Source: Phlebopus portentosus
Taxonomy: Eukaryota; Basidiomycota; Agaricomycetes; Boletales; Boletinellaceae
Direction: 5' to 3'
NCBI GenBank assembly: GCA_037892935.1
Contig: JAYXKI010000005.1
Coordinates: 310,001-374,000, forward strand
Length of the DNA: 64,000 nucleotides
The notes below the pieces were generated by a model. It worked only from the letters and a program-made list of their open reading frames with translations. It was not told the DNA's origin and searched no databases. The position numbers and the translations under genes were made by a program. Position 1 is the first letter of the stretch; every line of letters starts with the position of its first letter. Shown one piece after another: positions 28,547 through 60,630 of this stretch.

Positions 28547-28807
28547 TCAGTTCTTTAAAATCTTCCAGAATTTGTCCCAAGTAACATGACCACCGAGCGT
28601 CTCATGAAATCCAAGTGTGTCTTCTTCAGGGTTTGCAGTCTTAGCATGCACGAATTTCTTCCTTGCTTGGTCGGCAGCGAGAAACATCGACTGCATATCA
28701 TCAATCCACGAGGAGATTAGTGGCTTATAGAAGTCTGTGAATAATTTGTCCAAGTTTGGTTGGGAAAGCCCGACTAGCACCGATTGTTTAGACCAGATGA
28801 GCAAATT
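28547..28807 (-). pseudogene. FunK1 kinase C: 3' half of a copy split by the giant element (other half = D)
   Basis: C-lobe end of a FunK1 kinase (LFTDFYKPLISSWIDDM, ETLGGHVTWDKFWKILKN), with stop at 28547-28549. Its homology ends at GAGCAAATT (28807), where the left terminal inverted repeat of the 19.4 kb element begins. The missing upstream part continues exactly at 48184. Confidence 0.85.
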
Positions 28808-28822
28808 CATCAGGAAAAACCT

Positions 28823-29185
28823 GATCTGCGGAAAGCAATGGAACTAGATAGGGAGATAAGAGAATGGGCGGATCACATGGGGTGGCGGAGAAATGAGTCG
28901 GAACGGACCCGGGATGGAATGGGACTGGAGGAAATAGATACCAGATTAGTCGTAGATCCGCGTGTCCCACTTATCAAGAGTCATTTATGTAATAGATAGA
29001 AGTGCCCATGTGAAGCTTCAGTCAGGTTACCATCCATAAATGGAAATATGATGGTCATGTGAAGATATTGGACTTGAGCTGAGCGCATGCAGAGGCCTAC
29101 AATTGGTCGAAACGGCCTAATTGCTTTCTATGTTAATGTAACTCGTTATTGTTGACTTTCTAGTACATGTACATAATGTATGAAA
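28823..29185. other. Left subterminal region of the giant element
   Basis: Non-coding DNA between the left TIR and the end of the transposase gene. It has GGAACGG/CCGGG-type motifs (near 28900-28915) that resemble those near the right end (48045-48070), as expected of subterminal transposase-binding repeats. Confidence 0.4.
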
Positions 29186-32100
29186 TTAAAACATACTAAA
29201 ATGTGTACTTCGGTCTCTAAAGTCATTCAGGTAGAAGTCAGTACATTCCTCCAGCACATTACTACTTGTCCAATGTGCAGGGGCCACTTTTCCGAATTGA
29301 GGTATTAGATGCACACTACGATGAAAATTCGCTACGGGTATAATAGAAGACTCCCTGCTGCTATCTGGAGTGAGTGAGCGCGAGACTTTATACATTCTGA
29401 AGTTGATATCCGGTTGAGGTGAAAACTTTGAGAACCATTCAATGTAGGCCAGACGACGGGGCACAAGAGCTTGCAGATGGACATGTTCATCGTCCATGAA
29501 GAGCTGTGAGAGAGCTCTGTTATTGAGGGAGAATATAGCACGCGCTTGAGCAACGCAGAACGCTGGAATACGTAGTTAAGCTCACGCATATTATATTGAG
29601 ACAAACACAGACTCACATTGAATGTCTGTGCCTTCACAAATGCGCACGAGCGCCGTGTCGAACCAGCCAGGTACGTCTCTACCTTGCTTATCGAGCTTTC
29701 TTGCCTGGCATGTATCGAATCTACCACAGGCCTGTCGTCATCCATCTCGTTTCGAAACTTGATTCTTTCGAACACTGACACAAGACAAACAATAATTAAT
29801 TCGTCTCTCGCTTTCTGCTCGAGTTCTCTTTGGCGCATATTGGGGTACTTTAAGGATACAGCGTAATGTGCAAGAGCACGATTGAACTGGTGTACCCCGT
29901 ATGAGTCAGCTAGAACCTTGAAGTTGCAGGTTTTCGTTGGATTCTTTGCAGTCGAGATTTCGAGGTCTGGTAGTAACTCGGTGGATGTCCAAGGAGGGGC
30001 CGGCGCGAATCGCTGAGTTCTCCAATCAATATTCTTCTTCAAATCACAAACTTTCTCTTTTCTCTCGAGCCAGCGTGTCATCTGAGGAAGTTCGTCCTTA
30101 TGGTTAGTTGCTGCGTAGGCGTCCTTAGCAAAATCAATGTGCAGGCGTTCCGTAAATTGGGTATTGTAGTTGTCCGTGGTGCCGCGAGACTTAATGCTGC
30201 TAGTATAATGCACCATAGAATGTAACTTGATGAAATTGAAGTCGACTCGTGCTCCCTCATCAATAAAAACTTGCTTATTCTCGTGAAAACACCGCAGTGC
30301 ATCGTCCAGCAACTCCAATGTCTGTGATGTATGGATAGGGTATTGCGCGATGTAGACGAAGTCAAGAATGGCTCGGGTTGCGCGGACGAGTTGTTGCGTC
30401 GCTCGATTGCTGCCCAATTGAAAGCCTGCTAATAATCCAAGCAGGAACTGGCAGATTTGACTGTGTTCTGTTCTGCTCACCCTGTTTAGAATAGACAGGC
30501 CCATATGAAAGACTCTAATACTGTGATTCGGCGGTATGCGCCTGCATCGAGCGTCGAGTTCCTTCTCACCCAGTGTGACCGTAAGCCACTCTATCAAATG
30601 CTTGATGACACCTTGGTGCAGTTGATGAAGGATATCTGGTGTAAGCGCATCGAAAACATCGCAGTATGGCAAATCGATCCAGAACGGGTGTTGAATTGGC
30701 TTGATGCGATGTGCTTTGCATACACGAGAATATTGAGATGGATCATCGGAGTCGAGGATATCCATGATGTCTAACACCTCATCCAGATCGCGGTGCGCGT
30801 GTGACTCTTCCCAGTGTTCTCCGAGTTCATGCTTTCGGCATATGCACTTCGGACAATCTCCTGATATGATGCTGGAGACTTGCACCTGCTCCTGATAATC
30901 GATTGCGACTGCGGCGAGGATGGGGTGACAACGGCGCTCGATCCCATTTCCGTCTGTCATAAGGACACCAGGACCGCCGTGTCTTCCCATGTCACAAAAT
31001 ATGAACCGCATGCAGGCATGGACGAGGTTCTGAAGCATGCGTCGACGGGAGGCATTGCTAGATATGTGCTGGAGGCGACTCGTAGGCAGATACGCTAAGA
31101 GAACCTGAGCTTGTCTCGATGGTTTCTTGCGGATGTCCTTTGGAATATTCGCGATCGTAAGATAGACAGGATACGCTGTCTTTGTACGGAACAGAGTGAT
31201 CTGCGTCTTGTCCAAAGAAATGATAACAGGTATTACGGTCCCACCAGGCTCTTGTTGTTCAATCGCCCGCTAAAATATCTATTAGAATGCAGATTGAAGA
31301 CAAACCAGCATTATCACACACCTGAGAGGCCCACCACCATTCCCCGGTATGCATATCATGATACACCTGAATTCTCTCCTCCTCATCTGCGAAATGACGT
31401 TCTGGTTGAAGAATCAACCCATCCGCAAATTCGGGAGCGCTCAGTAGAGCTCGTATGCACTCCATCGTATCTCTGCTATATAGGTCGACCTGGGTACCTC
31501 CTACGACGATCTCTCGTCGATGAAACAGCAGGCGCCGCGAAGGGATCTGTTTGTCGATTAGCGCGTTGAGTTCTCGAGCATTCCGATATGATAGTCCTAG
31601 CATTTGTACAATCTATTTCGGACTGTCAATACAGATGTTCATAGTATTGTGGTCCTTGCAACCCACACCATCAATCTTCAACAAATCATCCAGAGCATTC
31701 GACCCTGCTCCTCATGTCTTTGCCCAGCACGCAACTTCCCAGTCCAGCTTTGACCGAAATGGTGCATACCTGCCTTCACTGCCTGATCTCATTTGAAGGT
31801 CTCGCGTGAACTGAGTGTATGCTGCGCTCCCCTGTTCAGAAACGTCCGCAGCCAGGTGTCTGTATGCTTTACCGGCCCGTGCATAAGGTACTACGTCGTT
31901 AAATTTGACTATACGAGCTGGGCGATATTGCAACCTTGCCTGAGCAGCGCGGCGCTCGACAATAATCTCCCCAAGGCGTTGTTGTGCCGACTCATCTTCA
32001 TCGTCTATTTCCTCGTCTAGTTCCAGCTCAGCTGGCGTGCGATGAGGTTCCCAGACTCGTTCGGTGTCAGCGTCACTGTCGTCCGAACTACTGTTGTTCT

Positions 32101-32411
32101 GTCGGACCTGTAAAATTGCTCAATGTTTCGAGTACGTACCTGTCGTCGTCGTCGAATGTCATTCCTTCTGAGTTGCAAGCACCATCCCCCATGGGAAAAT
32201 CATCCTCTCCGTAGTCGTTCCCGAAATAATCCCCCGTGAATTCCACCCATCCTTGTCGGTCGATCTCTTCGTTATGTGTAGTATCTCGCAAAGCATCGTA
32301 ATGTATAACGAGCACCTGCTAGCACCTGCTACTTTCTGGCTGATACATCTGATGTCGTCGTACGTCCATGAATCGTCTGTTACAACCCAAACATTCTTCT
32401 CGTTCGCTCAT
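29186..32411 (-). CDS. Plavaka-family DNA transposase
   Basis: Plavaka transposases are RNase H-fold enzymes common in basidiomycete genomes. The ATG at 32411 opens with a zinc-finger-like CLGCNRRF...RRHQMY. Exons follow with GLSYRNARELNALIDKQIP and WWASQ (31300-31600). The long open stretch 31215-29332 carries the hallmark PVYLTIANIPKDIRKKPSRQ, FIFCDMGRHGGPGVLMTDG, CPKCICRKHELG, DALTPDILHQLHQGVIKH and FTERLHIDFAKDAYAATNHK. After the last intron the C-terminal region (FSKFSPQPDINFRMYKVSRS, VLEECTDFYLNDFRDR) ends at 29186. No internal stop was found in the main exon, so it may still be active. Exact exon joins in the first 1.2 kb are uncertain. Confidence 0.8.
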
Positions 32412-33012
32412 TTCCGTTCCTAGTACTACAGTGCAGAATATTAGACTTATATATTGTTCTCCTTAATGAAATATGTATATTTTCTTTATAAAACCTGTAT
32501 GCTACTTGATACAAGAAATTATTTTGGTATACGGTACATTAAATAACGAGGAGAGTCACTGCAGCCGCGACTTGACAGTGGTGGTAAGAAGCAAGACAGA
32601 AAGAAGTGCTTAAAAGTTTGACGCGTCGGTATATTGGACTCGAGCGTGCGAACTTGGGAAGATCACAAGAATAGCATGTGATCTTCCCAAGTTCACACGC
32701 TCGAGTCCAATATACCGACGCATCGATCGTCCTTGTACAGTTTTTCTCTTGTCTCTTTCCACGACCTACCCTGTACGGTAGAAGTAGCGTAGAGAAACAT
32801 ACAGTAGTAAAACAAATAGAAACACTTTTTTGAGTGTCGTTCGGACGCCTCAGAGGACATATATCCACAAGACAACCATAAAAAAAGCAAAAAAAAAATT
32901 TGATTGCGTGCATTACAATTAGAAAGTCGTCTACAATGAGCCATGTATGCATAACGTCGCGATTGTGTGACAATAAAAAATTGATGTGTTTTTGTAGTCA
33001 ACAAGCAAGGAA
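32412..33012. promoter_or_regulatory. Divergent intergenic region, transposase / Spt5-like gene
   Basis: Six hundred bases between two divergent starts inside the giant element. Its main feature is the 99 bp hairpin at 32623-32721. An acceptor-like TTTTTGTAG at 32989-32997 suggests a 5'-UTR intron of the Spt5-like gene. No coding frame is supported. Confidence 0.5.
32623..32721. repeat. Near-perfect hairpin, 45 bp arms, 9 bp loop
   Basis: The left arm 32623-32667 (starting GCGTCGGTATATTGGACTCG) and the right arm 32677-32721 are complementary with one mismatch. The loop is AGAATAGCA. It lies midway between the divergent transposase and Spt5-like genes. Confidence 0.95.
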
Positions 33013-34669
33013 ATGGATACCATGAAGTTTCTCGATCTCTCTGCACAAGTCTGCGATGATACGGATGAAGAATCTGAGGCAAGCAACGCAGAAGGTATGT
33101 ATTACAGTGTCCATGCAAAATACAGTCTATTTATATACGTGAACAGACAACAATTTCATTGATGACGTACAGTTCGATCAAGCGCAGCGCGCAGCACGTC
33201 CTGTGCTGAGCCTGGATGCCCCGCCAGATGAGTCACAAGTCGCCGAGTCGATTGCCAGTGACATCGTGCAGCGAGCACGCAAGCGGCGAAGGACCGAGTA
33301 CAAAACCGAGGCATCCGCAACGCCGCAATGGGGAAGGGATGCACTCACAACGCAGCTGAGGACTGGGCGAGCGTTGTTCCCTGAAGGGATGCATGTCGAC
33401 GATTCGAAATACGAAATGTATTTCATTAGGGTGTGTGTATTCCAAATCTTTCTTTCAACCGAAATGCTCACAAACAACGTATGAAGTCTATGGATGCAAG
33501 CAACAAGTCAGCGCTCATTATGAAACACTTCCCTCCCCATTGTCTTGTCTTCCACATCCCGTGGCTTGCTGGCCGCGTTTATCTCTGGGTCCCGGACATT
33601 CAGATCATCAATGACATGTTCACTGCCCGAGGACGCACCCAGACCACACGCCCGCCAACGCGCGTCCCATCCGATGAGCAAGGCCTAGTGTTCGCCATGC
33701 TGCAAAGAAGCCAACCTGAGTACCACGTCGGGCAGTGGATCAAAGTGAAAAAAGGAAAGTTTGCTGGTGATTTCGGGGTAGTGGAGGAAGTTTCTCATGA
33801 CAGGCGTACCGTTCATATCGCCGCAATGGCATGCGTACATGATTCGCCAGAGCAGGATAATGTGCAGCGGCCTGAAATGCGTCTGGCCACTCTTTCATGG
33901 CTAAGAGACACATTCAAATCTGAGCCAATCACACATTACGAGAATGGCTCTTACGAGTTCCGAGGAGGTCGTTATCGAGACGGGCTACGTTTATTACGCA
34001 TGACGGTTGCGAGTGTTCAACCAGCCTTCCCGAGTTTGCACGAGGTTCAGCCCTTTCGTCTGCAACACTTCGGGGATCTTCAGGATTTGGAGAGCTACGT
34101 ACAGTCTGGAGACCTGGTGGCGATCCATTCAGGTTCATTGATGAATCTAGTCGGCGTCGTACAGGAAAGGCTGGACTTAGAAGTTATAGTCGGTCAGTTG
34201 AGATGACTTGACACCTTGGAAGAAATCATCGACAATGACTGGTTTTCGAGGCCCGCCGGCAAAGAACGGACATACTGGGATTCCCTACAAGGCTTGCGCC
34301 GATCGGACGTGCTTTTAGATCTCAAACAGGATTCTGAAGACGACAAGATCAGAGGGGTCGCCTCCATGCACGTCCATCACATACGCCGCTTTCTCGATGT
34401 CGGCGATGAAGTTCTTGTCAGGGTCGGATTACACTCAGGAAAGCACGGAATGATCGTTGAGCAGCACAGCGACATGCTGAATTTGCTGTTCAAAGACTCG
34501 GAACTCTCAGTGCGTATCATTATCAGTTTGGAGTTTTTCTGTGACTGAGTGCTCTTAGGTTGAAGTTTCGCGTTTTTGGGTTGAAACAGTTTCGAAGGCC
34601 CCAATGCGCGTCGCTCCAGCTCGAGAGGAAAACGCGACTCACATATTCAATAAAGGCACGGTGTGGTAT

Positions 34670-36600
34670 TAGGTGTGGTCTCTCTATCTGAAGGCGCTAC
34701 AGATGTCCATCCTACTAAGGGAGCTGAATGTGTGAAGAAACCTCCAGAAACGAAGCCTCAAGCTATCAGACTCTAACCACTAACCACCTGGCAGGTGCCA
34801 AAACCGTCAGAGACGTCGGGGAGTGGCCTATGGACGCCGAGGTATGAAAGGAATGGAGTAGTAGGTCCGCCGGACAGAAGGGGAGGTCACAGGAGTCCGC
34901 CGGAGTAGCGCAATCTCAGTAGGAGGAAGCTAGGAACTGTATATGACGAATATGAGGCGTAACGTGCAGCGAGTAGGTGAAAAAGACGCCGAGGGGGAAT
35001 ACAATGGAAGGCCTGTGTCGCCAGAGGGCCGCCGAGGTCGAATAGGGGGCTGCCGGGGACGAGGGAGCGTGTACAAATCCGCCGCAGTAGCGTAAACTGG
35101 ATAAATGAAAGGTAGGGACCGTATACGATGGATACGAGGCGTAACGTGTGGCGAGTAGGTGAACAAGACGCCGAGGGGGAATACAATGGAAGGCCTGTGT
35201 CACCGGAGGGCCGCCGAGGTCGAATAGGGGGCCGCCGGGGACGAGGGAGTGTGTACAAATCCGCCACGGTAGCGTAAACTGGATAAATGAAAGGTAGGGG
35301 CCGTATATGATGAATATAGGGGACAACGTGCGGCGAGTAACTGGAAAAGACGCCGCAGGGGTGTAGGACAGAAGGCCTGTGTCGCCGGAGGGCTGCCGAG
35401 GTCGAATAGAGGCCGCCCGACAGGTACAATGGAGTGCGGCGGACGTTTGGGGGTAGGTTCCCAGTCCTAACTCACACACCTGGCCCTTGTATGCTGTGGA
35501 AGCTCTCTGCTATGAATGTGCTCTCGTATCTCTCTTGTCTACTGATGAATATACACTCTATATATACTCTTCTGCTCTCGCCGATGAGTCCTACTGTCTG
35601 ACAACATCTCCTGAGTCACTGGGCTCGCCAAGGGCCGCCGCCGGAGCATCTAGGAGGTGTACGGCAGCACCAACGTGAGGGGGCTATCCAATAGTATGAT
35701 ATATCGTGTATCTGCAATAAAATGGGCACTGGCGGAGTCTGGCTTGGCAGCGGCGGTCGGTGGCTTGGCACGCCGCTGTACCACATGCCTGACTGCCATA
35801 TATGGTCTAGGGTCGCCCGCCGCTTGGGGGGAAGTCGGGAAACATCGGGGCCGATGTTCAGAGGCTCATATCGCATATATGAGATAAAGGGCGCATCAGT
35901 CAGGGTCTCTGGGCCACCCAAGGCCGCCGCCGCACTCAATATAGAGTGTAGGCGATCCATGGTAACTAAGGAGGGCGCCGGAGCGGCGGATCTGCAAGTC
36001 GCCGCTCGATCGGCGGCGGATTCGTAAAGGTGCGGCCTTTGGTGGCATATGAGCAGGGATGATACTAGATAAATCCATAGGCCTTGGGGGACTGCCTGGT
36101 AAGTTGTAGGAGGCCTCAGCGAGGGCACCTGAGGACGCCTGAGTGGCCGCCGGACCAATCTGAGGCTTGGGGGGCCGCCGCAGGGGTGTCCAAATCCGCC
36201 TCGAGGCTGTACGTATGAGGAATTGTAATAACGAAGGCCTATAATGATTGGGGGACATCTCCTATGGTGTCTGGTGCTGGGTAGGAGCCTTTGGCGGATG
36301 TGTATGGGTGCCAGGGAGCCAGCGGCGGACTTGTCTGGGCTCTCGGAGGGCGCCGCAGGGGGAAGTGTAGGCTAGAATCCATAGATATGTGCTCATATGG
36401 CCTCTAGAGTGTGGTATGAGTATGCCTTGGTCCTCTGAGGTGTAGGCGGCGAAGGGATATGGTATCTGAAGTAGGGGAGAGCCATAGTATGAGTGTCCTG
36501 GCACAGGACTGGCCAGGGCACTACAACGGTATGCATATGCATTGGTGAGTACGCTGGACGATGGGGTAAGATACTGCAGGTCGAAGGTAGAGCAAACATA
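34670..36600. other. GC-rich block of about 2 kb inside the Spt5-like gene
   Basis: The composition is unlike the neighbours, rich in GCCGCC/GGCGG. The first part is a 182 bp tandem repeat array; the rest is unique low-complexity DNA. Open minus-strand frames of 180-190 codons exist, but they overlap each other in different frames. The limits are approximate; no inverted ends or target duplication were identified. Confidence 0.5.
34880..35430. repeat. 182 bp tandem repeat, about three units
   Basis: The landmark AACGTG recurs at 34961, 35143 and 35325, exactly 182 bp apart, with the surrounding sequence conserved (GACGCCG, GGCCTGTGTC, GGTCGAATAG). 182 is not a multiple of three. Confidence 0.9.
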
Positions 36601-37715
36601 CTTGTGCTCATACGCGGTGCGAATGGGCACAATGATGTGGTGGTGAGTAACAATAGTCTCCCTATGTTACGAAACAACTAAGAAATATGCAGGAAGAATA
36701 TAGTGCCGATCAACTCGTAGAATGGACTCCAGACATGATTGAACATGGCTCGTTACCACTGGCGACGAAGGACGACATTTACGCAAAGACGCATAGAAGC
36801 CGATTCGTCGGAAAATATGTTTTCATTTGGAACAGGGGCATCTCCACCAGTGGGCGTGGGACAAGGTTTGCAAAGGGGATGCACGGCTTCGTGACGGAAG
36901 TCGATGAGGAGAGGAAAACGGCAGGGGTCGCATTCCAGAACAGAGAGGAAACATTCCCTCTGAGGAATCTGGTGTCTGGGTACGTTCGCTTGATTGATTG
37001 ATTTGTCGATTACCATAGTTAATGATGAGTGCAGGGATTTCCTTTGTAGTCTGGACCGCGAAGCTCCCCTGTCCCTCCCGAGTTCTCGTATCTATTCAGG
37101 CGGGTACAAGAGCTACAGGCCAGAAGGGGGACATTGACGCATGCGTGGGCCTCCAACTTGAACCCACGGCACACGGAGAGATCAGATGAAGAAAGGGCGA
37201 AGGAGTACGAACCCGTCCCGATGCAGTACGAACCCGTCACAGGTTAGGGTACTGCTGATTGACAAGGGCGATTGACTAATGACAAGTACATAGATTTCTC
37301 TCAACCTGGCTTCTGGATCTTTCACCTGAGAGTTCGTTCATTCTTCCCAGCTCACAAGGTATTCGTTCGATGTGCTCGACAAGATCGAGCAGGATATATT
37401 ACTGGAGACCTTGGAGAAGACCATTCGCGATGTTTTGGAGCCCACGACAAATGCAGAGTGCGCATTCATATAGAGAGAGGAAGCACGGTAATAGAGTCGT
37501 CCATTGATGTATGCAATCTGGAGCCCTGTCGTCCGGTGAAGAAAAACGAGAAAGTCCTTCATGTCAGAGGCTTGGAAGGAAGACCGGTTAGGTTACTTGT
37601 CGCTACTGGAGTCCCGAGGCGGCGCGAGCAACCCATTACAGTGTGCGAGCCTGGAAACAACAAGCAAGTCTCATACTTGCAAGGATGGCAGGTAACGAAA
37701 GTAGAGAGTATTTGA

Positions 37716-38291
37716 GAACTTGAACTACGAAGACGTGTAGTTTGGAGAATATTTTATTCCTATTTATTCGTGTCGTACATGCATTATATTAGTAGATACA
37801 CAATATCGTAGAATAATGAGCCGGCTGGCCCGTTGCAGCTGAAATGTACTCTGTATAGAACTGATTCCATACGAGGGCCCCAAACACTTTCGAGTAGATG
37901 ACTTACGATACAGATTTTCCATCGAGGAACTTGTTGGACAAGGAATTGCGCAATACTTTCAGGGCCTGGTGAGTTCCGACTCTTTACACACAATGAATTG
38001 ATCTGAATTCTTGAGAACATTCTTTCAGGAAGTATGGATCGACAAAGTGAACTAAAAAGCTTATCAATAGAAGCTCACGGCATGCGAGCTTATCACCAAC
38101 ATGTCTTCGGCAAGCTTTTATCCTTCTATTTTGAGACCTTGACCTTGGATACATACAGACCCGAACCTCGTAGATGCGATCACATTTTTTTCAGTTCAAA
38201 AACTCGAACTGTCCAACTAATTCCCCCCCCAATCTCTCTCTCAGTAGCGCACATCTCAAGTTCAAAGTTCTTACAGTCTGCGAATACAAGA
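37716..38291. other. Intergenic region inside the giant element
   Basis: Between the Spt5-like gene and the next cargo gene. An in-frame upstream extension (from 38034) exists but lacks the composition of the following protein. C8 at 38223-38230 and CT-rich DNA precede the ATG. Confidence 0.4.
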
Positions 38292-40225
38292 ATGTCTTTC
38301 TCGTATGCTCAAGTGGCTAACGCAATGTACAGGCGAGGCTCGACCCCCTCGACTCCGGCACTGTCGCGTTCTGGCTCGTCTGCGAGCAGTTCGACATTCA
38401 GGAACGTCACCAATACGACTCCTGGCGCAGGCAAAGGAGCTGTCCCCGACACGCCAACGGTAAGACATTACCCATACTCTCAGGCGTGACCTGCTGACTC
38501 CTTGACAGGTCTCCCAGTCGCGCGCCAGTGCAAAAGGAATCGCGTCCGCCCCTGCTGTCGCGGCAGTTGCACAAGACGCCTCCTCGACGCAAGCCACGCC
38601 GAAGGTAAAAACATTATCCAATACTCTCAAACGCGTCCTGAAGACTCCTTGACAGGTGTCTCAGTCGCGTGCCAACAGAAAAGAAGATGCGAATGGCTCC
38701 GATGTCAGGGAAGTCGCGAAGCACGCGTCTTTGATGCAAGCCGCGAGACTCAGGGAGCCCAAGGCCCGGATGCGTACGTCGTAGTGTCTTGATTCCTTCT
38801 ATGCGCTAACCGTCGGGTTGCATTTCTAAGTGAAAGAAAATGCGACTGCACCTGCAGTGAAGGCTGTCGAAGAGGACGCGTCCTCGACGCGCCGCCCGAA
38901 GCGCAAGGCAGCTACAGAGGCCCACATGCGTAATTCTCGTTGTTCTGGCTCATGTAGGGACTAATACTCTCTTCTTTAGACTGGGAGTCCATCAAAAAGA
39001 AGACACGCGGCTCTAAGAAAGCTCGCGTTGCCGGTGCTGGCGACGCGAACGACTTCTTCGCGATGCCGCCGCCTTGTTCCCCTCCGGGATCGGACGTGAT
39101 GCGCACAGTCAGGCAGCCTGCGCCGCGTGGTGCGCTTCGCATTTTATAGTTCTACGAAACTGAAGGGCTGACGTTGGTATAGACAAGTCAGCCTCCAAGT
39201 TCCGCGTGTGGCGTGTCGAAGAGTCCGACGCGCCTTCCTCGACTCTGAGTGATGCGGAAGGTCCCTCTCCCGAAGAGATAAGGCAGATAATGCGAAACTC
39301 CCCCGAGGAGGAGTACGTATCGAAGCGTAGGGAAATGAAGGCACGCAAGAAAGGTAAATAACAGACTGGTTTAATTTCAAGTGTCTCATTCGTCGATTAG
39401 CCGAAGAAGCGCGCCGTCTTGCAGAACAGAACAAGAAAGGCAAGTGTGTACGAGTCGGCTCATAATCATTCTAATGGCGCATTTAGCTTCAGGTATGTGG
39501 CAAAGCAAGACTAACAAGGGTATAGGCAAACAAAGAGCCTCGTCGAATGATCGCGTGAAGACAACGCTCATAGGCAAGAAACTTGCGGTGAGTAGCATAG
39601 ATTATATTTTAGACTCCCAACTCCCTACTGCATTTGTAAACAGATCAAACAAGAGGAAACCGATGAAGAATATTTATACGGTCCAGACACTGACGAGGAT
39701 GAGAGCTGCGCATCCTTATGTGAAGATACCGAAGGCTCGGTAGTCGATGATGAAGATTCGGATGACTTCAAAGAGGATGAGGTGCGTGGCAGCATTGATT
39801 TGCGCCCACATGTTATTTCACGCTTTCCAGGATGCGCACATTCTTTCCGGGGAGACGACTGATGAAGACTCCGATGGTGTCGCCGGGACTACACGAGCCG
39901 TGGCGAGTCGTGCTCTTCCATTGGCAGCGAAATGTCGTGGCCGCACTGCCACAAAGCTGCAGGAAGAAGTAAGTATATGCCTCTTCTGGGGCAGTCATAC
40001 TCACAGGTGCTGTAGGCGGTGTTCGTCAATTTGCTTGATGGCGACAGTGATGAAGAGCATGCTGATGGCCCTACTGTGGAACCTGAGGCGGTTGCGGAAG
40101 CGCAACCCATTGCCTACGATGTTCGTGGGGATCCAGCTCTGCCACCACCTCACGAAGCTCCCTTTGACGCAGCAATTGCAGTCGAACCGGATGCTAACTC
40201 CATCGACATCGTCAATCCGGCACAT
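38292..40225 (+). pseudogene. Uncharacterised intron-rich gene of the giant element, 5' part (split by gypsy element)
   Basis: ATG 38292 gives MSFSYAQVANAMYRRG. About ten exons with 45-70 bp introns encode a Ser/Thr/Ala-rich, then highly charged nuclear-looking protein: SIKKKTRGSKKARVAGAGD, EEARRLAEQNKK, and long Asp/Glu stretches near 39670-39780 and 40030-40100. Exons 2 and 3 are tandem copies (both start VSQSRA). The last exon reads to INPAH-type codons at 40225, where the LTR begins. Joining to 46884 keeps the frame exactly (NPAH/PLLGNQPP), so this and 46879-47879 are one gene. The only stop seen before the join comes from LTR sequence. Confidence 0.7.
38460..38752 (+). repeat. Tandem duplication of an intron+exon unit (147 bp)
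   Basis: The introns 38460-38508 and 38605-38655 and the exons that follow them are similar. Both introns end CTCCTTGACAG and both exons start with codons for VSQSRA. Exon starts are 147 bp apart. Confidence 0.75.
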
Positions 40226-40683
40226 TGTTAGGCGGACAGCTCAAGGACTGAGTTGAGGCAGGCCAACACAACAACAAACAAGCGTGAATGAGATAATCCC
40301 AAACACGTCGCTCAGGTCAAGACAGCTAAGACGAGGCTTAAGTCCAGACCGTCGAACGCTAGGTCGCAGTGAAGGTAAGTAGAATTCAGCAAACTAATAA
40401 TACAAGAGTAGATACCTAGGTCGCAGTGAAGGTAAGTAGAATAGAAAGACAAGGAACGAAAGAGTCAAACTATCTACTTATATAGACTTTGGGCACGGGA
40501 AAGGTCTACCTTAATGGGAAGTCACATGACAAGGAATGGGATGATTAGTGAGCGTGATAGAACATTGTGGAATGTTCCGGCAAAAGGATGAATAAGCACA
40601 TAAGAAAAATAAAAGAAAAGAAAAAGAATATTAAAATAAATGATGACGTCAGAAAAGAAAAGGAAAATGTTCGAGTCCTTACA
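40226..40683 (-). repeat. LTR (3' LTR in element orientation)
   Basis: 458 bp, TG...CA. It contains an internal direct repeat of CTAGGTCGCAGTGAAGGTAA and seven more bases at 40359 and 40416 (57 bp apart), also present in the other LTR. Confidence 0.95.
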
Positions 40684-43600
40684 TCACCCCCCCTTCAAGG
40701 TTGGGCGTCCCGACCAACCACATAAGCCTTCTGAGGACGTGAACTTGTACAGCGCTCGCAGGCTTTGTCGAGGTATCGTTAACTTCCTTGGAGCTCCAGG
40801 ATGTTTGCGGTAGAATTCTTGAATTGACTCCTGCGCATTATCCTTGACGTCAGATTCTGGCTGCCAAGTCGCTTCCTCATATCCAACCCACTTGACCAAG
40901 AATTGGAGCTTGCCTCGATGCAGACGCGAGTCGAGTATTTCTTCAACCTCGTACTCCTCCTGCTCATCAATGATCACTGGCAGTGGTGGAGGTGGTTTCT
41001 TCTGCGATTCAAAGGACGGTTGGACGGCTGGTTTGAGCAAGATCTTATTGAAAACTGGATGGACCTTCTTCCAGGTCTTCGGTAGTTTGAGTCTGTATGC
41101 GCTTGCGCCAACCTTTTCCACTACCTCGAAGGGACCGAACCATTTATCATCCATCTTCTTCATCAGTCGGATCGTCTTGATATTTCGTCCATCTAAGAAG
41201 ACTTTCTGCCCTGCTTCATAGGTAATGGACTTCCCAGCATGGCGGTCGTAGAAACGCTTCATGTCTTCGTTTGCTTAGGTTAGGTTACCTTGAGCGAGTT
41301 CATGCACCTCCTTGACATGCTTGGCAAATTCTTCTGCTGACAGGTTCGATGATGCCATTCCAACCCCCGTGAAGTCTAAGGGGTGCATTCCCGTATTGAC
41401 GAAGAAGGGAGATAGCTTCGTCGCTGAATGTTCACAGTTGTTGTATGCGAATTCTGCGAGAGCCAGCCAGTCCGCCCAGTCCGACTGCCAATGGTTGACG
41501 TATAGCTGCAGGTATTGTTCTAGTTCCTGATTAACCCGCTCTGTCTGTCTGTCAGTTTGTGGGTGATACGCTGTCAATGGGTTGCCTTCAATGTGGAGGA
41601 GCTTGTACAACTCCTTCATCATCTTTGCGTCGAATTGCACCCCTCAGTCATGAATGATCTTCTGTGGTAGTCCGTGTAATCGGAAGACGTGGTCTCTGTA
41701 GATCCTAGCCATGCCTTCCGCCGTTAACTTTGTCGTTGTTGGAATTGCATGGATTTGTTTGCTAAAGCGATCGACCACTACGCAAATCGCATTGAACCCA
41801 TTCGATTCTGGCAACTCTCCGATTAGGTCGACTGTGACAATCTGCCATGGCGCCTCCGGCACCTCATTAGGGTGCAAAACCTTTGCTCTCATTGTCCTTA
41901 GAGCCTTTGTCTGCTGACAACGATCACACCCCCGCACATACACCCGCACATCTGCACTCATCCTCGGCCACCAGTACCTGCGTGCTATCAGCTGGATCGT
42001 CTTTGTTGCTCCTGGATGTCCTGCCAGGGTCGAGTCATGGTGTTCCTTCATGATGTCCTCTCTGATGCTCGCTGGTACATATAGCCGGCGGCCCTTTCTC
42101 CACATGTCCCCTCTCTTCTCGACGTCCTTCAGCCTCACTCCCTCGTCCTCTTGTCTCTGCGCTTCCACGACCTTTTCAATGAGTACTTCTCTTGACATCT
42201 GAACCATTCCTCTAACCAGCCATTCCTTCTTGATGAAAGTCACATTCTCATTATCACGCTCGCCCTTGTCATAATCCGCCCGGCGTGACAACAGATCAGC
42301 TTTTCCCAATGTCTTTCCAGGTTTATGGACTAGCGTGAAATCGAACTCAGCTAAATCGAGTCACCAATGAGCTTGTCGACAATTTAGCTTCTGCGGTGAT
42401 TGGAAGTACGTTAGATTTGCATGGTCTGTCCATACCTCAAATGGTTGGTTAGCTCCCTGGAGATATTGTCGCCATTCCTTTAGGGCTTGAACAATGGCAA
42501 GCATTTCCTTGTCGTAAATCTCATAGTTTCGCTCCGCCTCTAGGAATGTTGATGACCGATAAGCGATCACCTTCCATTTGCCATCTTGTTTCTGGAGAAG
42601 GACTCCACCAGTCGCAAAATCCGACGCATCTGCTTCTACACGGAAAGGGTCCTCATTGTTGGGTATCGCTAACACGGGAGGACTACTCAAACGACGCTTC
42701 AATTCCTCAAACGCTGCCTGCTCATCTTCGCCCCATTTCCATTCCACCTTACCCGTTAGGGTAGTCAAGGGTTTGACGACCGAACTGTAATCCTTAACAA
42801 AATGTCGCAACCAATTTCCTAATCCCAGGAATTGTTGCAGTTCGTGGACGTTCCTTGGAACTGGCCAGTTCTGTACTGCCGCCGTCTTCTTGGGATCCAT
42901 TCGAACTTCGCCATTGCCAATAATGTGTCCGAGGTACTTGACTGTGTCAACTTCGAACTCGCACTTCTGCGGCTTTAGGAAAAGTCCGTTTTGGCGAAGG
43001 ATCTCAAAGACTCGTTTGGTGCGTCTGCGATGTTCTTCTAGATCATTCGAGAAGATGAGAATGTCATCGAGGTAAATGATGACGACACCCTCATGAATTA
43101 GCTCCCAAAAGATGTCATTCATAAAGCCTTGGAACGTCGCTGGTGCATTATACAAGCCAAAGAACATGACTGTGGGTTCGAATAAGCCTAGATTTGTCTG
43201 GAACGCTGCCTTCCACTCGTCTCCCTCGCGAATCTGGATGTTGTAGTATCCCCAACGAACATCGAGCTTCGTGATGTACCTTGCATCCTTAACCTTGTTG
43301 ATGAGCTCATTTATCAGTGGCAATGGGTATTTGTTCTTGACCGTCCCTTCGTTGAGCTTTCGATAGTCTTGGATTGCTCGTAAGCTCCCATCCTCTTTCT
43401 TGATAAAGAAGAATGGTGACGCCATTGGAGACTTCGACTGTCGGATACGTCCTGACGCTAGGTTTTCCTCAATGAACTCCCTCATCGCTTCTTGTTCTTT
43501 TGGCGATAACGGGTAAACCTTGCAGTCGCTGGGTTTGAAATCCGGTTTCAGGTCAATAGCGTGGTCCCACGTTTGGTGGTTTGGTAAGCGTTCGAATGAT

Positions 43601-44508
43601 TCCTCACTAAAGACGTCGGCGTATTCCTCCAGGTAAGGTGGCCATTTTGCCGCTTCCTTCATCCACACATTCCTCACAAACTCTTCATCTATCTCCTCGC
43701 TCGACAGTGGCGACTCACATTCATCAGGGCAACGGGTGAACTTAACTGTTCCTAACCTCCAATCAATCTCAGGATTATGCTTCGTCAACCAGTCATATCC
43801 GAGGAAGATGTTGCTTGACGCTAAGGATGTCACTGCCAGTCAAATCTCTTCCTCGTGTTTCCCAAAGAACATTCATATGACTACGTATTCCTTGATCAAT
43901 CCAGCCTCGTTGCTTGTTCCGTCAGCATTGAAGACTGGTCTAGGCCGAATGTACCTTTGGGTGGGGAAACCATACTGTTTGACAAAACCTTTGTCGATGC
44001 ATGAGCCCATGCACCCTGAGTCGATCAGTGCATGAGCATCAATGAGGTTTTCCTCTTCAAGTAGGGGGTTTGACAAGTCTACTTCATCATCACCTGCTAC
44101 CTTTGGGTGTACGATGCTAACGAAGGCGTCCAACTCCTTTCCTCCCGCCCGTCGCACGAACTGATCTGCGTCCACAATGCCCTCGCGCCATATCTCAGCC
44201 GCACGTCTGCCTACTACATCCCACACTGCTTCAGTGACATTCGCCTGAGCAACAACGTTCTCGCGGTAAGGTGCTTCTGCCACAACCTCATTTTTTATAG
44301 TGGTTTGATTCCGCTCTTCCTCTCTCAATTTGCCTGCTTGCGCATCTGTTCTTCTGACAAATAAATCTTCATAGACTTCGAAGTCATCGTTGTCATCTTC
44401 AGATTCATCTGGCAGCACGTCGGTAAGGATCTTTCGAAGGATGAAACCGTCACTGGTATTCACATCTTGATATTGTACAACAGAACGATTATATTTTAAC
44501 GAGTCCAA
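40684..44508 (-). pseudogene. gypsy pol: protease, reverse transcriptase, RNase H, integrase, chromodomain; five in-frame stops
   Basis: Domains in order on the minus strand are an aspartic protease with IDSGCMGSCID (about 44010), a reverse transcriptase with the YLDDILIF active site (about 43060-43085), RNase H with EADASDFATGG and DHANLTYF, and an integrase zinc finger with H-H-C-C spacing (HHDSTLAGHPG, CDRCQQTK, about 41900-42050). The integrase core follows (VDLIGELPESNG, VVVDRFSKQ), and a C-terminal chromodomain (EVEEILDSRL, WVGYEEATWQP, about 40800-40960) that steers insertion in chromoviruses. One frame runs throughout but is broken at 43873-43875, 43840-43842, 42361-42363, 41644-41646 (all TGA) and 41275-41277 (TAA). 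pol is in a different frame from gag, with about 40 bp between them. Confidence 0.92.
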
Positions 44509-44549
44509 CGAAAAGAGTCCTTTAGGAGACCGACCAGTCGTTCCGACGT

Positions 44550-45791
44550 CTACGCCTGGTCTTCTGGAAAACCCTCGCCTTCTATGAGTTCTTCCAGCTC
44601 AGCGGGTACCGCTCGTACATCGACGTCATCGTCCTCTTCGAAGGAGGATTCCTTTGCTTGGCCGAGTTCCTCGAAGAGCACCTTTCTGTCTGCTGGGACG
44701 AAGGCTGCGATGATGGCACGTATTGCTTCACGACCTCGCGGGCATTCCCTGATGTAGTGGCCCACCTGACCACACTTGTAACAAGAACGTGTACGACGCG
44801 CCTGGTTCATCATCACATCCATGGGTTGTCCTAAGCCTCCATACGTTACTCCTGTAGCATCACGACGATCTTGAGCGGGGGGTATGAAAGGACGGGCTGC
44901 TTGTTGAGGCGGCATAAAACGTCTCATTGGTGGTGTCGGAGCTGGTTTCATCGCTGTCGAACTAATTGTCTTTCTCCGATGTTCAGCCATCAGGTCCCTG
45001 ATTTGGCGCTCGACCCTGTCGACCTTGACGGCGGCCTTCTTGAACTCTTCGTACGACGTCGGTTCATTGGGCAATCTCATGACCCCTTCCACAACCTTCG
45101 GGTTTAGCGCCCTCTTCAGGCGACTCATCAACCATTCGTCGTGTGCCTCTGTTGCTAGGCCAGCATCCACTCGACAAATGTCAAACTTGTTGAAAAACTC
45201 GTCGGCGTTGAGGTCTCCTTGGTACATCGCATCTAGTCGTTCGAAGGCCTTTTGGGATCTGGCAGGGTCATCGAACGAAGTGTCCAGCTTCTTTAAGAAG
45301 GCATCCCAGGTGTCCGTGAACGTCAGGTTGCCATCTGCATCGACTGCTCCACTGGTGTAACTCTCTGCCCAGCGAGCCGCAGCACCACTCTTTATGTACG
45401 ACAGGGCGAACATAATCTTACTCTTGTTCGTCCGGAACTCTGACTCAGATGCGTAGATGTAGAGGCGCAGCTCTCGCTTGAAGTCCACGTAATCGTGTTC
45501 ACCATCAAAGTCTCTTGGTTTGGCGACGTGGACCTTCTTCGACACCTTTGATCCTTGGTTTGCACCTTCGCCTGCAGCTTGGAGCGCTAGTGCGACCGCC
45601 GTTGTGAGATCAGTCATCGCTTCCTTCGATAAAGACATCTCGTGTTCTTCTTCTTCTTCTTCGTCTTCTTCACTCGGTATAAGCGGCGCTGGTTCTCGGA
45701 ACTTTCTAAACGCCGGAGAAGGCTCGACAGTGGGGGCCAACGCTTGAGTGGTCGAACCCGATGGTTCTGGTAAGGGGGCCGTTGGTTGCAT
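44550..45791 (-). CDS. gypsy gag (capsid and nucleocapsid)
   Basis: 413 residues. A Pro/Thr-rich start and an acidic stretch (SEEDEEEEEEHEM) precede the retrotransposon gag domain (DFDGEHDYVDFKRELRLYIY, SRLKRALNPKVVEGVM). One CCHC zinc knuckle, CYKCGQVGHYIRECP (about 44740-44785), binds nucleic acid. The tail is acidic. The frame is intact, unlike pol. Confidence 0.92.
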   Translation of the reverse strand: MQPTAPLPEPSGSTTQALAPTVEPSPAFRKFREPAPLIPSEEDEEEEEEHEMSLSKEAMTDLTTAVALALQAAGEGANQGSKVSKKVHVAKPRDFDGEHDYVDFKRELRLYIYASESEFRTNKSKIMFALSYIKSGAAARWAESYTSGAVDADGNLTFTDTWDAFLKKLDTSFDDPARSQKAFERLDAMYQGDLNADEFFNKFDICRVDAGLATEAHDEWLMSRLKRALNPKVVEGVMRLPNEPTSYEEFKKAAVKVDRVERQIRDLMAEHRRKTISSTAMKPAPTPPMRRFMPPQQAARPFIPPAQDRRDATGVTYGGLGQPMDVMMNQARRTRSCYKCGQVGHYIRECPRGREAIRAIIAAFVPADRKVLFEELGQAKESSFEEDDDVDVRAVPAELEELIEGEGFPEDQA

Positions 45792-46420
45792 CGGAGTAGG
45801 AGGTGAGGGCTCGTCTACGTCGCCTTCTTATTTCACTCTCCAGTGGATGGACCTTCCTTCCCTCTGGGAGTACCACCTCTTGGCAGTCTCGTCCCACCAG
45901 GCGCCGAAGACTTGATTTCCTGCTTTGACGATATAATGTCCCCGCGAGGCGCTCCACCTAGAGTTCGCAGGGAGGGCCGCTCGTTGCTCGTCAGTTAGCT
46001 CCACCTTGATAGGCTGGGGGTGGAACGGGGATCGGGATGCTGTTCGGGCGGGGCCGACTTCGGATAACCGGCTCGTCTTTGAAATTGACGACTAAACGAA
46101 AGGCTCCGAGGTAGATAATGAAGGAGATACTTGTCGACGACTGGACTCTATGCGTTACCCACGAGAAGGTTTGATGGGAGTTCCAGAGAAGGGTGATTTG
46201 GAGCACCACGGTGATGTGATTGGTTGATACTTCGGGTACTATCGGGTCACGTCGGAGTCAATCGGACTTCGACGGGCAAGATAGGGGTTTGTTGTCTGCA
46301 CGGTAGGAACCGGGTTTCGTTCAATGTCGTCCTTCGAAGATATACTTCAGGGGACACGTCACAGGCGAGCGCTCGACGATAACGGAATCGGGCGTGAGCC
46401 AGAGGTCGGTCTTTCTATTA
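45792..46420 (-). other. gypsy 5' untranslated leader
   Basis: Between gag and the upstream LTR. No coding frame is supported. The primer-binding site should lie just inside 46420, but no standard tRNA 3' end complement was recognised there. Confidence 0.6.
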
Positions 46421-46878
46421 TGTTAGGCGGACGGCTCAAGGACTGAGTCGAGGCAGGCCAACACAACAACAAACAAGCGTGAATGAGATAATCCCAAACA
46501 CGTCGCTCAGGTCAAGACAGCTAAGACGAGGCTTAAGTCCAGACCGTCGAACGCTAGGTCGCAGTGAAGGTAAGTAGAATTCAGCAAACTAATAATATAA
46601 GAGTAGATACCTAGGTCGCAGTGAAGGTAAGTAGAATAGAAAGACAAGGAACGAAAGAGTCAAACTATCTACTTATATAGACTTTGGGCACGGGAAAGGT
46701 CTACCCTAATGGGAAGTCACATGACAAGGAATGGGATGATTAGTGAGCGTGATAGAACATTGTGGAATGTTCCGGCAAAAGGATGAATAAGCGCATAAGA
46801 AAAATAAAAGAAAAGAAAAAGAATATTAAAATAAATGATGACGTCAGAAAAGAAAAGGAAAATGTTCGAGTCCTTACA
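46421..46878 (-). repeat. LTR (5' LTR in element orientation)
   Basis: 458 bp, matching 40226-40683 except for about five transitions. Confidence 0.95.
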
Positions 46879-47879
46879 CACATCCGCTGTTGGGTAACCA
46901 GCCGCCAAAGGTCAAGGCCGTCGTGGTCGAAACGAACAAACTAATGGGAAGCACCATTCTCCTGAATGGTGTACTCATGGACCACGACGATCGCAACGGT
47001 GCCATCATCAAGCTTGGTGTCAAAGTAGCCCTTCGGCTCGGTCATCGAGACCTGGCCGCTACTATCGAGCACATTGGGACTCCACAATCTCAAGGCTTCT
47101 ACAGACTGGTAAGTATCTTTCATTTTCCGAATGTTTTACTGACGCATTTGAGCAGGTTGGGGAACGCGTGAGCACCATTCACGGGAACATGAAGAACACC
47201 ATCAAGCCTGCACTTTCTGCATACAGCGTACCGCTGCAGTGCGAAGAAGCAGACCAAACCATCGCATACCTCAAGAAAGATCGGAGATACATTTATTCTA
47301 GTCCAGACGTGGTGAGTGAGTTTGTGTTGGTCTTTCTATTGCTCAATGTCCTTCGTAGCCGCACTGGCAAACGGCATACATGCACCCAGCGATCGTGCAC
47401 GCCCTTCACATTCTTCTTTTCGAGCCTATTAGACCTGCCAGAATGGCAATCGCAACATACGACCCCGACATCTTCCAGCCTGCGGATGATGCATACGGTT
47501 TTGAGAAGGAAATTCCTGATACAATGGTTGCCAGTGCAGCAACTTTGGTAACCGCTTCGCTAATACATACAGAATGGATGTGACAGTGTCTCTTTCAGAT
47601 ATTCTACACATTGGACTGCCTCGTTCGAGATTGCAAGAGTTGCAGGAGACAACCTGATATAACTGATGACCTTTACAGAAAGGAATTCTTGTTCCACTCT
47701 AGGACCATGGAGTACCTTCGTGGTAAGCCTAAAATCCATCATGAACGCCTCAGTTGGCTCTACTGCGCCGTTCAAGAGTAGGTTTTCATGATTCTATCAT
47801 TTTACTACACTGATAATATGTCTGCAGACAACTCGACACGCCGGATCTCGACGATGAGGATGCACTGAAGTGGGAGTGA
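46879..47879 (+). pseudogene. Uncharacterised gene of the giant element, 3' part (continuation of 38292-40225)
   Basis: After the duplicated CACAT the coding frame resumes (PLLGNQPPKVKAVVVETNK). Exons separated by short introns follow: NGVLMDHDDRNGAIIKLGV, GFYRL/VGERVSTIHGNMKN, MHPAIVHALHILLFEP, EKEIPDTMVASAAT and IFYTLDCLVRDCKSC. The last exon joins AVQ/E to QLDTPDLDDEDALKWE with stop 47877-47879. The helical layout, with an alternation of conserved hydrophobics and an ATL-type segment near the end, is reminiscent of the DUF6532-type domain found in many agaricomycete proteins. That assignment is weak. Confidence 0.6.
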
Positions 47880-48168
47880 AGTCCTAAGCATAACCATTCT
47901 CATTGTATATGCAACATATATGTTATTATGCTGGATTGTATGTCGAATAGCTCAATATGCATGCCTATGATTTGGACTTTTTGCGTCCCATTCAAAAATT
48001 GACCGAAAAGAACACCTGAGAATTGATCGGAACTTGCCGGAACGGCTTGGAACACGGAACGGGGTCCGGGAATGTATTAGAATAGAAATTTTTAGATTAC
48101 ATGGAATTTCTACGGAATTTTTGCCCGAATTCTCCGAATTCTGGCCATTCTAAGGTATTCCGGACATG
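47880..48168. other. Right subterminal region of the giant element
   Basis: Non-coding. It contains repeated CGGAAC/GGAAC and CCGAATTC motifs (48025-48150), likely subterminal repeats. Confidence 0.45.
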
Positions 48169-48183
48169 AGGTTTTTCCTGATG

Positions 48184-48870
48184 TTGTCCACGTCTGTGTC
48201 CCATTCCTCAAAAATATCCGTCTTTATTTCTTCGCCGTTCGAATAATGGGTCCCAATCCAGCAAATAACGTAGAAGAATGACTCCCAGTCAAATCTTTCG
48301 AGGTGTGTGTGTGTGTGGGGGGGGGTTGTCCTGCGAGAAGTTCCTTTGACATGAAACGCCGAGTCCCAGTTCGCCGTCCGTGGTGGACTTCGCCGCCCGG
48401 TTCCCCACCAGAAGTCAGATCAAAATCAATTAAGACTGCATGTACAGCGCCGTCGTTATTGTAGCGTGCCATCAAGTTATGAAGACTGATATCACGATGG
48501 AGAATGTGTTCTTTGTTGTTGAACAAGAAATGGTGTGCTATTCCAAGGAAACAGTCAGAAGGAGAGAAACAGTCAGAAGGGGAGACATTGAACGAAAATC
48601 AAACGCACCTAGCACGATGTCCCGGATAGCTTGCTTGAAATTGTCCAGGTTCGTCAATTCAAACATTGGACGAAGGCGCTCCCGGACTATTACGCGAGAG
48701 GTGCGATTCCCAGTCTCGTTGAGATTTTTGTAATATTCCACTGTTCTGCATTGGAAATACTGTTCTCCCTTCAGATTATCGATCTTTCTCGCTAATTCGT
48801 CCATCCGAAAGGGATCCGCAAGGCTCTTATCATGTATTGCTCACGATCAGTACCAGCGTCGAGCTTCAAG
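48184..48870 (-). pseudogene. FunK1 kinase D: 5' half of the split copy (continues in C)
   Basis: Fragments of the kinase from NRTSRVIVRERLRPMFELTN through HILHRDISLHNLMARY and VLIDFDLTSGGE to WDTDVD, ending where the right TIR starts. The frame breaks near 48310-48330 in a GT/G run (GTGTGTGTGTGGGGGGGGG). Together with C it makes one truncated unit equivalent to B, E and G. Confidence 0.8.
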
Positions 48871-60137: not shown

Positions 60138-60630
60138 TCGTGGCGGAGCGACTGTAGTTTCACAGGTCCATATTATTTTTACATGATTCTCTTCTCTTTT
60201 TTATCCTTCAATACAGAACTCTAACTGCTATCGCGTTCTAAACCGTGTATTTTGTCATCTGCTTTGCTTCGCTGTTTTGTATCAGTGTTATGTACTGTTA
60301 TTTTAGAGCATTGCTGTAATATGCACTACATCGACGACCCGGACACGACCTATCTAGAACTTTATGTCCCATTTGAGTGATTATACTCGTTTTTTCGATG
60401 ACCTGAAGTCATTTTGTGATCGAAAACTCGGGATAGATTGTAGTCATCCTGTACATTAGGAACCCTTCAACGCCTGTAGTATGCTGGGCTATGCTTAAGC
60501 AATAGCTTTGGAGAATCTCCACGAGTTACTGTGTATAGTTCGGATAGCAAGACAGCTTACGAATTACTGTAAGTACGCAGCGGAGACGGTAAATCCGATC
60601 CTACAAGACCCAGTCCACCCCAGTCCACCA
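60138..60630. repeat. Convergent spacer (copy of 26778-27255)
   Basis: Same order of sequence as in block 1 with a few small indels. Non-coding. Confidence 0.7.

Follow-up and report, generated by a model that had tools for sequence, protein, structure and literature searches.

A PlavakaB-type DNA transposon of Phlebopus portentosus and its putative resident Spt5-like gene

We analyzed a 64,000-nucleotide stretch of the genome of the basidiomycete Phlebopus portentosus (contig JAYXKI010000005.1, positions 310,001 to 374,000; hereafter the window) and found that positions 28,808 to 48,183 hold a copy of an element which its transposase and its ends mark as a PlavakaB-type DNA transposon, presumably moving by cut and paste, with a native length of about 10.85 kb. 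The element is predicted to carry three genes of its own, encoding a Plavaka transposase, a distant relative of the transcription elongation factor Spt5, and a DUF6532 protein. For the statement as a whole, that is, a PlavakaB element with three resident genes and a tentative anti-silencing role for the Spt5-like protein, we estimate a probability of roughly 0.75. PlavakaB itself is known. As far as we searched, the Spt5 paralogue as transposon cargo is new: within the open-licence literature searched we found no report of Plavaka together with Spt5, of Spt5-like genes in basidiomycete transposons or, by title, of Spt5 or KOW sequences captured by elements.

The genome searched was the window's own assembly (38.37 Mb in 23 contigs, labelled C1, C2 and so on), and it contains a second full copy on contig C16. 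Gene models were built on that copy, where simple GT-AG splicing yields a long open frame for each of the three genes; they are predictions. The features of the window copy are the following.

28806..28807, no strand: left copy of the target-site duplication (TSD), TT, also supported by empty-site alignments
28808..28822, plus strand: left terminal inverted repeat (TIR), CATCAGGAAAAACCT, with the same end in the C16 copy
29186..32411, minus strand: Plavaka transposase gene in five exons, an open model of 1,004 amino acids in the C16 copy
32620..32724, no strand: imperfect hairpin with 48-nt arms, 96% complementary, and a 9-nt spacer
33013..38055, plus strand: Spt5-like gene, with acidic N-terminus, NGN-like region and KOW
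34662..36525, no strand: nested solo long terminal repeat (LTR) with TG...CA ends, 4-bp TSD ACGG and 182-nt tandem repeats, not in the C16 copy
39474..47879, plus strand: DUF6532 gene, about 451 amino acids in eight exons (C16 splice model), PF20149 at 5.4e-09, split by the Ty3 element in the window
40226..46878, minus strand: nested Ty3/gypsy LTR retrotransposon with chromodomain, 458-bp LTRs and TSD CACAT, not in the C16 copy
48169..48183, minus strand: right TIR, the inverted 15-mer CATCAGGAAAAACCT
48184..48185, no strand: right copy of the TSD, TT

Ends, copies and class of the element

The original prediction had placed TIRs and a TT duplication at the two breakpoints, and both were borne out. 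Allowing zero to two mismatches, CATCAGGAAAAACCT matches the window once per strand, at 28808-28822 and, inverted, at 48169-48183, with TT outside each end; pairing of the two ends runs on to 26 nt at 88%. The empty site that had been claimed also held up. When the flanks were joined after removing the insertion by script, eight of the 12 non-self matches in the window crossed the junction, and the five that we inspected per base were all unbroken there (76-84% identity). In the stretch 60509-61462, CTT is followed directly by GTCC at the junction, which is the expected unoccupied site. Frames near these stretches match Pkinase_fungal, and the stretches themselves were identified by sequence match to the joined flanks; the window copy disrupts a sequence repeated inside a fungal kinase gene cluster. 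A chance origin of the ends is excluded by the second TIR-bounded copy (C16:1170-12021; 10,852 bp), which has a different TSD, GT. This copy lies in the opposite orientation, 1.2 kb from the end of its contig, and aligns with the window copy in three segments at 98.6-99.2% identity, with 145 mismatches and 15 gap columns. Since the two retrotransposon insertions nested in the window copy are missing from it, the native element measures about 10.85 kb; the 19.4-kb unit first proposed was too large, as its 19,376 bp include both insertions, neither of which the original prediction had named.

The transposase matches PF18759 at 1e-76, with an N-terminal exon at 8.4e-23, and relatives from Sanghuangporus sanghuang and Sanghuangporus baumii (984 and 973 amino acids) cover 98% and 97% of the model. 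According to section 3.2.2 of Kojima 2025 (PMC12730594), PlavakaB elements have the termini 5'-CATCA..TGATG-3' and TSDs of 2-3 bp. Both full copies end in CATCA..TGATG and have 2-bp TSDs (TT in the window, GT on C16). With catalytic residues assigned by eye, the C(2)C motif, which lies between the second D and the last E, reads CPKC at residue 467, between DYQEQ (452) and FTERLH (700), and the region of the H(3-4)H motif reads HQLHQGVVKH at 543, where the spacing is ambiguous. The element has in common with PlavakaB the transposase family, the termini, the 2-bp TSD and extra genes beside the transposase. For Kyakuja/KDZ elements the same source describes a KDZ transposase, a 7-8 bp TSD and, in Kyakuja, the lack of a TIR; the only transposase family matched by the frames of the present element is Plavaka, and it has a 2-bp TSD and a 15-bp TIR. 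Where the TET+ Plavaka families in the literature have a TET/JBP dioxygenase, the present element has the Spt5-like gene instead: no Tet_JBP match occurred among the element frames scanned, and the TET-like protein of a second Plavaka family in this genome (see below) finds no copy inside the element.

A genome check of segments bounded by CATCAGGAAAAACCT, which had been suggested with the original prediction, gave a mixed answer. The exact 15-mer has eight matches in the genome, compared with none for a reversed control. Two exact pairs bound the window and C16 copies; the remaining four sites have other interiors, with no match to the C16 copy over about 10 kb inward. The 15-mer is therefore a terminus of the PlavakaB type and is not specific to this element. 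Relaxing the search to two mismatches gave 169 matches against 47 for the control (places listed in part), as expected if related ends are common. Of the four other sites, C8:1745955 and C15:118598 resemble one another at 94% along 581 bp. Near the end of contig C5, positions C5:2602262-2602372 hold a related element end that matches the final 111 bp of the present element at 86%. Near C8:713721 two TIR-like sequences stand 1.9 kb apart, but one end has three mismatches and the pair was rejected as an element; by a rough estimate, so loose a partner would turn up about 0.1 times in every 10 kb. The motif AATTC occurs seven times in the right 300 bp of the element, compared with 0.53 per 300 bp inside it and none in the left 300 bp.

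A partial copy without TIRs was found at C14:269001-277000. Its two fragments (2,502 and 1,559 bp) are 99.92-99.94% identical to the C16 copy. They are separated by 18 bp within a single host sequence and flanked by direct duplications, one of about 31 bp and one of about 9 bp; by its sequence, the pair looks like a capture of transposon DNA at breaks. Among the two insertions nested in the window copy, the smaller one (1.86 kb) is repetitive, with 96 genome matches listed, including seven pairs 5.1-5.9 kb apart. Its TG..CA ends, 4-bp TSD and paired matches identify it as a solo LTR, and on these grounds an alternative reading as an element with an 8-bp TSD was dropped. The Ty3/gypsy element (6.65 kb) contains gag, reverse transcriptase, integrase and chromodomain, and its LTRs differ at five of 458 sites.

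The Spt5-like gene and its residency

From a common upstream region of about 600 bp, the transposase gene is read to the left and the Spt5-like gene to the right. The hairpin already claimed from the window was confirmed within this region, between the two divergent start codons, and its only genome matches are in the two element copies. The original prediction had listed a separate NGN/KOW gene and an intron-rich gene; we found that splicing joins the NGN/KOW frame to at least part of the intron-rich stretch that follows, giving a single Spt5-like gene. That stretch is probably the other gene of the original prediction, and the DUF6532 gene is a further one. Two models were built on the C16 copy. 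Model A has 701 amino acids in six exons (window 33013-37247) and ends close to both relatives' ends; model B has 904 amino acids in nine exons (to 38055), and its last 203 residues are without support from relatives. We dropped the longer model as the sole one, since the relatives stop near residue 701, one at VTG and the other 16 residues on, and an in-frame stop lies there. No Pfam match was found in a frame of the longer model's tail.

Resemblance to Spt5 is distant and recurs in several comparisons. A KOW domain (PF00467, 3e-12) occupies the place of KOW1, and PF23042 is precomputed for both Spt5-like homologues, with no listed match for the element's own model. A profile of three relatives gave 11 distinct PDB matches at E up to 1, seven of them Spt5 and four ribosomal proteins, and the five best were all Spt5 (E 1.7e-07 to 3.7e-04). 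The sole match to the KOW1_SPT5 family in the genome is the host Spt5 at C8:520428, which is 21% identical over 352 amino acids to the S. baumii Spt5-like protein. In common with Spt5/NusG proteins, the element's version has a weak acidic N-terminus, an NGN-like region and KOW domains in the same order; it differs in being transposon-encoded, in the low identity of its S. baumii relative to the host Spt5, and in that no C-terminal repeats were seen. The predicted structure of the S. baumii protein had a mean predicted local distance difference test score (pLDDT) of 29 and was not used.

The linkage of this gene to the transposase is what identifies it as cargo. An Spt5-like query finds three loci in the genome (C16, the window and C14), and each adjoins one of the three copies of this transposase. 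None stands alone, so that the lone host gene which the original prediction had set against its own reading was not seen among the loci found. In a protein database (7,992 scored candidates), two Spt5-like relatives passed, SPT5_1 from S. sanghuang (96%) and ACEPAG_3055 from S. baumii (719 amino acids, 72%). The best 120 of 533 matches to the transposase include ACEPAF_43 from S. sanghuang (98%) and ACEPAG_3056 from S. baumii (84%). ACEPAG_3055 and ACEPAG_3056 are consecutive tags. SPT5_1 and ACEPAF_43 are on contigs of equal length (4,501,534), and adjacency of the two genes in S. sanghuang is likely from these records. In S. weigelae, we found a transposase at 57% and detected no Spt5-like partner. 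A profile search for remoter Spt5-like relatives returned the same two proteins only among 7,994 scored candidates; as the method depends on 5-residue words in common, this does not prove absence elsewhere.

The second copy and the S. baumii linkage show, independently of the window, one mobile unit with resident cargo. In this respect the original prediction of a single mobile unit with a Plavaka transposase and cargo stands, and its gene inventory and size do not. We consider it highly probable, from the sequences of these copies and relatives, that the Spt5-like gene belongs to the element and resides in it, rather than being a passenger of one copy. The window copy itself is dead. Its transposase gene has a 1-bp deletion and two new stops. 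Its Spt5-like gene is interrupted by the solo LTR and has also lost 1 bp and gained two stops, the second of which falls in the tail that no relative supports. Its DUF6532 gene is broken as well.

The DUF6532 gene and a second Plavaka family

The DUF6532 gene adjoins the right end of the element. Between it and the Spt5-like gene, at about 7.6-8.4 kb of the C16 copy, tandem repeats were found and no clear gene. The one paper on DUF6532 found in the open-licence literature searched, PMC8955403, lists both DUF6532 and Plavaka among the Pfam domains of two Ganoderma genomes.

The P. portentosus genome holds a second Plavaka family, with eight transposase loci (e.g., C14:425612-427193) whose matched parts are 27-30% identical to the transposase of the present element; a further, decayed locus lies on C3. 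Besides C16 there are eight DUF6532 loci, of which six are within 25 kb of a second-family transposase and the other two at 36 kb and 163 kb; a place chosen at random has a chance of about 1.3% of lying within 30 kb of such a transposase. The right end of this family reads CATCAGGAAAA in the three copies read, and these copies end about 1.4 kb past the DUF6532 match at CATCAGGAAAACAGTC, with differing flanks beyond. DUF6532 is thus common to two diverged Plavaka families, near the same end in both, and on this ground we take it to be resident as well. We searched for the left end of the second family and did not find it, so that the full structure of that family is unproven. The sequence CATCAGGAAAAGCCC near its transposases was rejected as a TIR, since its orientation faced away from the transposase and the right end reads CATCAGGAAAACAGTC.

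The two families have in common a Plavaka transposase and a DUF6532 gene near the right end. The second differs in having a TET/JBP-like dioxygenase near the transposase, and no Spt5-like gene was detected in it by searches that are insensitive and could let a distant one escape. The TET/JBP-like frame (Tet_JBP 0.00033, below the cut-off) has eight close copies and one distant copy. Six of eight TET-like loci lie 7.9-8.8 kb from a second-family transposase, one at 22 kb and one at 160 kb. The close copies are C14:417739-418314 and seven others on C1, C2, C6, C7 and C14; the ninth, 41% identical, is at C7:735362.

Outside both families, about nine weaker Plavaka-domain loci were noted (C1:3099682, C5:528247, C7:1364034, C9:354875, C9:404386, C12:392858, C12:690112, C13:990148 and C17:522061). 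Elsewhere in the window, at 14348-15526 on the plus strand, lies a gene that combines a chromodomain with a 5-hmdU DNA kinase helical domain (PF18723, 1.3e-89). It looks single-copy, as the five other listed genome matches cover the chromodomain part only (105 of 188 candidates scored).

CpG decay and the role of the Spt5-like protein

The differences between the two full copies are strongly asymmetric, and we read the direction of the changes from this asymmetry. From the C16 to the window copy, 132 of 145 differences are C-to-T or G-to-A, 125 of them at CpG; in the opposite direction there are six changes, five at CpG. CpG-to-TpG decay in the window copy affects 8.0% of CpG cytosines, compared with 0.18% of other C/G. 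The window copy has therefore probably been CpG-methylated for a long time, or has been the target of a CpG-directed mutation process. Agaricomycetes are described in PMC12730594 as a group in which no hypermutation has been detected. One CpG-decayed copy does not overturn that view, but it reveals pressure on the element.

In the mechanism that we propose, the transposase would cut at the TIRs, and DUF6532, which often accompanies Plavaka transposases, may bind the element ends. The Spt5-like protein would counter host silencing, most likely through RNA polymerase II, and so keep a CpG-methylated element transcribed; the TET/JBP-like dioxygenase may serve an equivalent role in the sister family. 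The benefit suggested by the original prediction, transcription through silenced chromatin, is indirectly supported by the CpG-specific decay of the window copy and the TET/JBP-like gene beside the second family. An anti-silencing role, or one in elongation, is nonetheless tentative, and we place it somewhat short of an even chance on the present comparisons. More doubtful is the wider idea that the counter-defence gene of Plavaka elements is swappable, with a TET/JBP-like dioxygenase that would alter methylated DNA in one family and, in another family of the same genome, a captured and reshaped Spt5 that drives or reprograms RNA polymerase II on the element's methylated copies; our estimate for it was lowered slightly because the searches for Spt5-like genes in the second family are insensitive. 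VANDAL transposons of Arabidopsis belong to another superfamily, the Mutator-like one. They provide a parallel in VANC, described in PMC5735166 and PMC10398659 as a sequence-specific anti-silencing protein. The likeness is that of a DNA transposon with its own anti-silencing protein, hypothetical in the present case, and the difference is that VANC is not an elongation factor.

Several observations weigh against an anti-silencing Spt5. The KOW1_SPT5 search of the genome missed the element copies, as befits a distant resemblance, and could miss Spt5-like genes elsewhere too. No Pfam NGN match was obtained for the Spt5-like protein, and the acidic Spt5 N-terminus was only sub-threshold. In the NGN strand, the element has W at the E of Spt5 (YIEA in the host, YLWV in the element; GHVYIEAR aligned with GRVYLWVP). 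This glutamate is one that we take to contact Spt4, which a literature search did not confirm, and the substitution makes Spt4 binding by the Spt5-like protein doubtful. No C-terminal TP repeats were read in the element model, and the S. baumii protein has two isolated TP pairs; the host Spt5 locus has repeats of the TPAWGRTPNPY type, and the true C-terminus of the element's protein is uncertain (701 or 904 amino acids). The Spt5-like homologues found belong to one genus, Sanghuangporus, and the window copy decayed at CpG despite bearing the gene. Finally, shortening of the Spt5 C-terminal domain (CTD) in fission yeast is reported to enhance RNA interference-independent heterochromatin (PMC10659198), and a tail-less Spt5 could on that account equally favor silencing.

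This last point leads to the rival that we take most seriously, in which the Spt5-like protein is dominant-negative or autoregulatory. By competition with the host Spt5 it would reduce transcription, or co-transcriptional silencing, at the divergent promoter of the element, where the hairpin lies. The lack of visible C-terminal repeats and the altered NGN strand would suit it, as would the dependence of heterochromatin on Spt5 CTD length (PMC10659198). So would a hairpin found only in this element and lying between both start codons, but the hairpin could also act in cis, for the transposase or in forming mRNA ends, and we regard this reading as unlikely. Still less probable is a targeting role, in which the protein links the transposase complex to RNA polymerase II during transcription and thereby directs insertion-site choice rather than countering silencing. 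NGN domains do act on RNA polymerase (PMC13334181), and the window copy interrupts a sequence repeated in a kinase gene cluster; against this, only two insertion sites with known ends are at hand, the C16 copy lies close to a contig end, and no domain in common with the transposase was seen.

Gene capture by DNA transposons is frequent, and the Spt5-like gene could be passively captured host DNA of no benefit to the element, similar to Pack-type cargo. Only three copies, one of them partial, and no relatives found beyond Sanghuangporus are what such a history might leave. However, the frame is open over at least 701 amino acids in the C16 copy, and the 72% S. baumii relative of 719 amino acids sits beside an 84% transposase. 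The S. baumii protein is only about 21% identical to the host Spt5, which argues for an old paralogue kept open and not for a fresh fragment, and passive capture is accordingly judged improbable, to about the same degree as targeting.

Cases in which transposon proteins have been proposed or shown to oppose silencing are few (VANC in plants, TET/JBP in fungi). If the anti-silencing role of the Spt5-like protein is true, a transposon-encoded elongation factor would be an anti-silencing device, and an Spt5 paralogue kept by a transposon would draw the polymerase elongation machinery into the arms race between transposon and host. The P. portentosus genome offers a natural comparison, since one copy in it is intact, another has decayed at CpG, and a second family has a TET-like gene. 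Furthermore, a gene of this transposon type is named SPT5_1 in the public S. sanghuang record, and such genes can thus be mistaken for host elongation factors.

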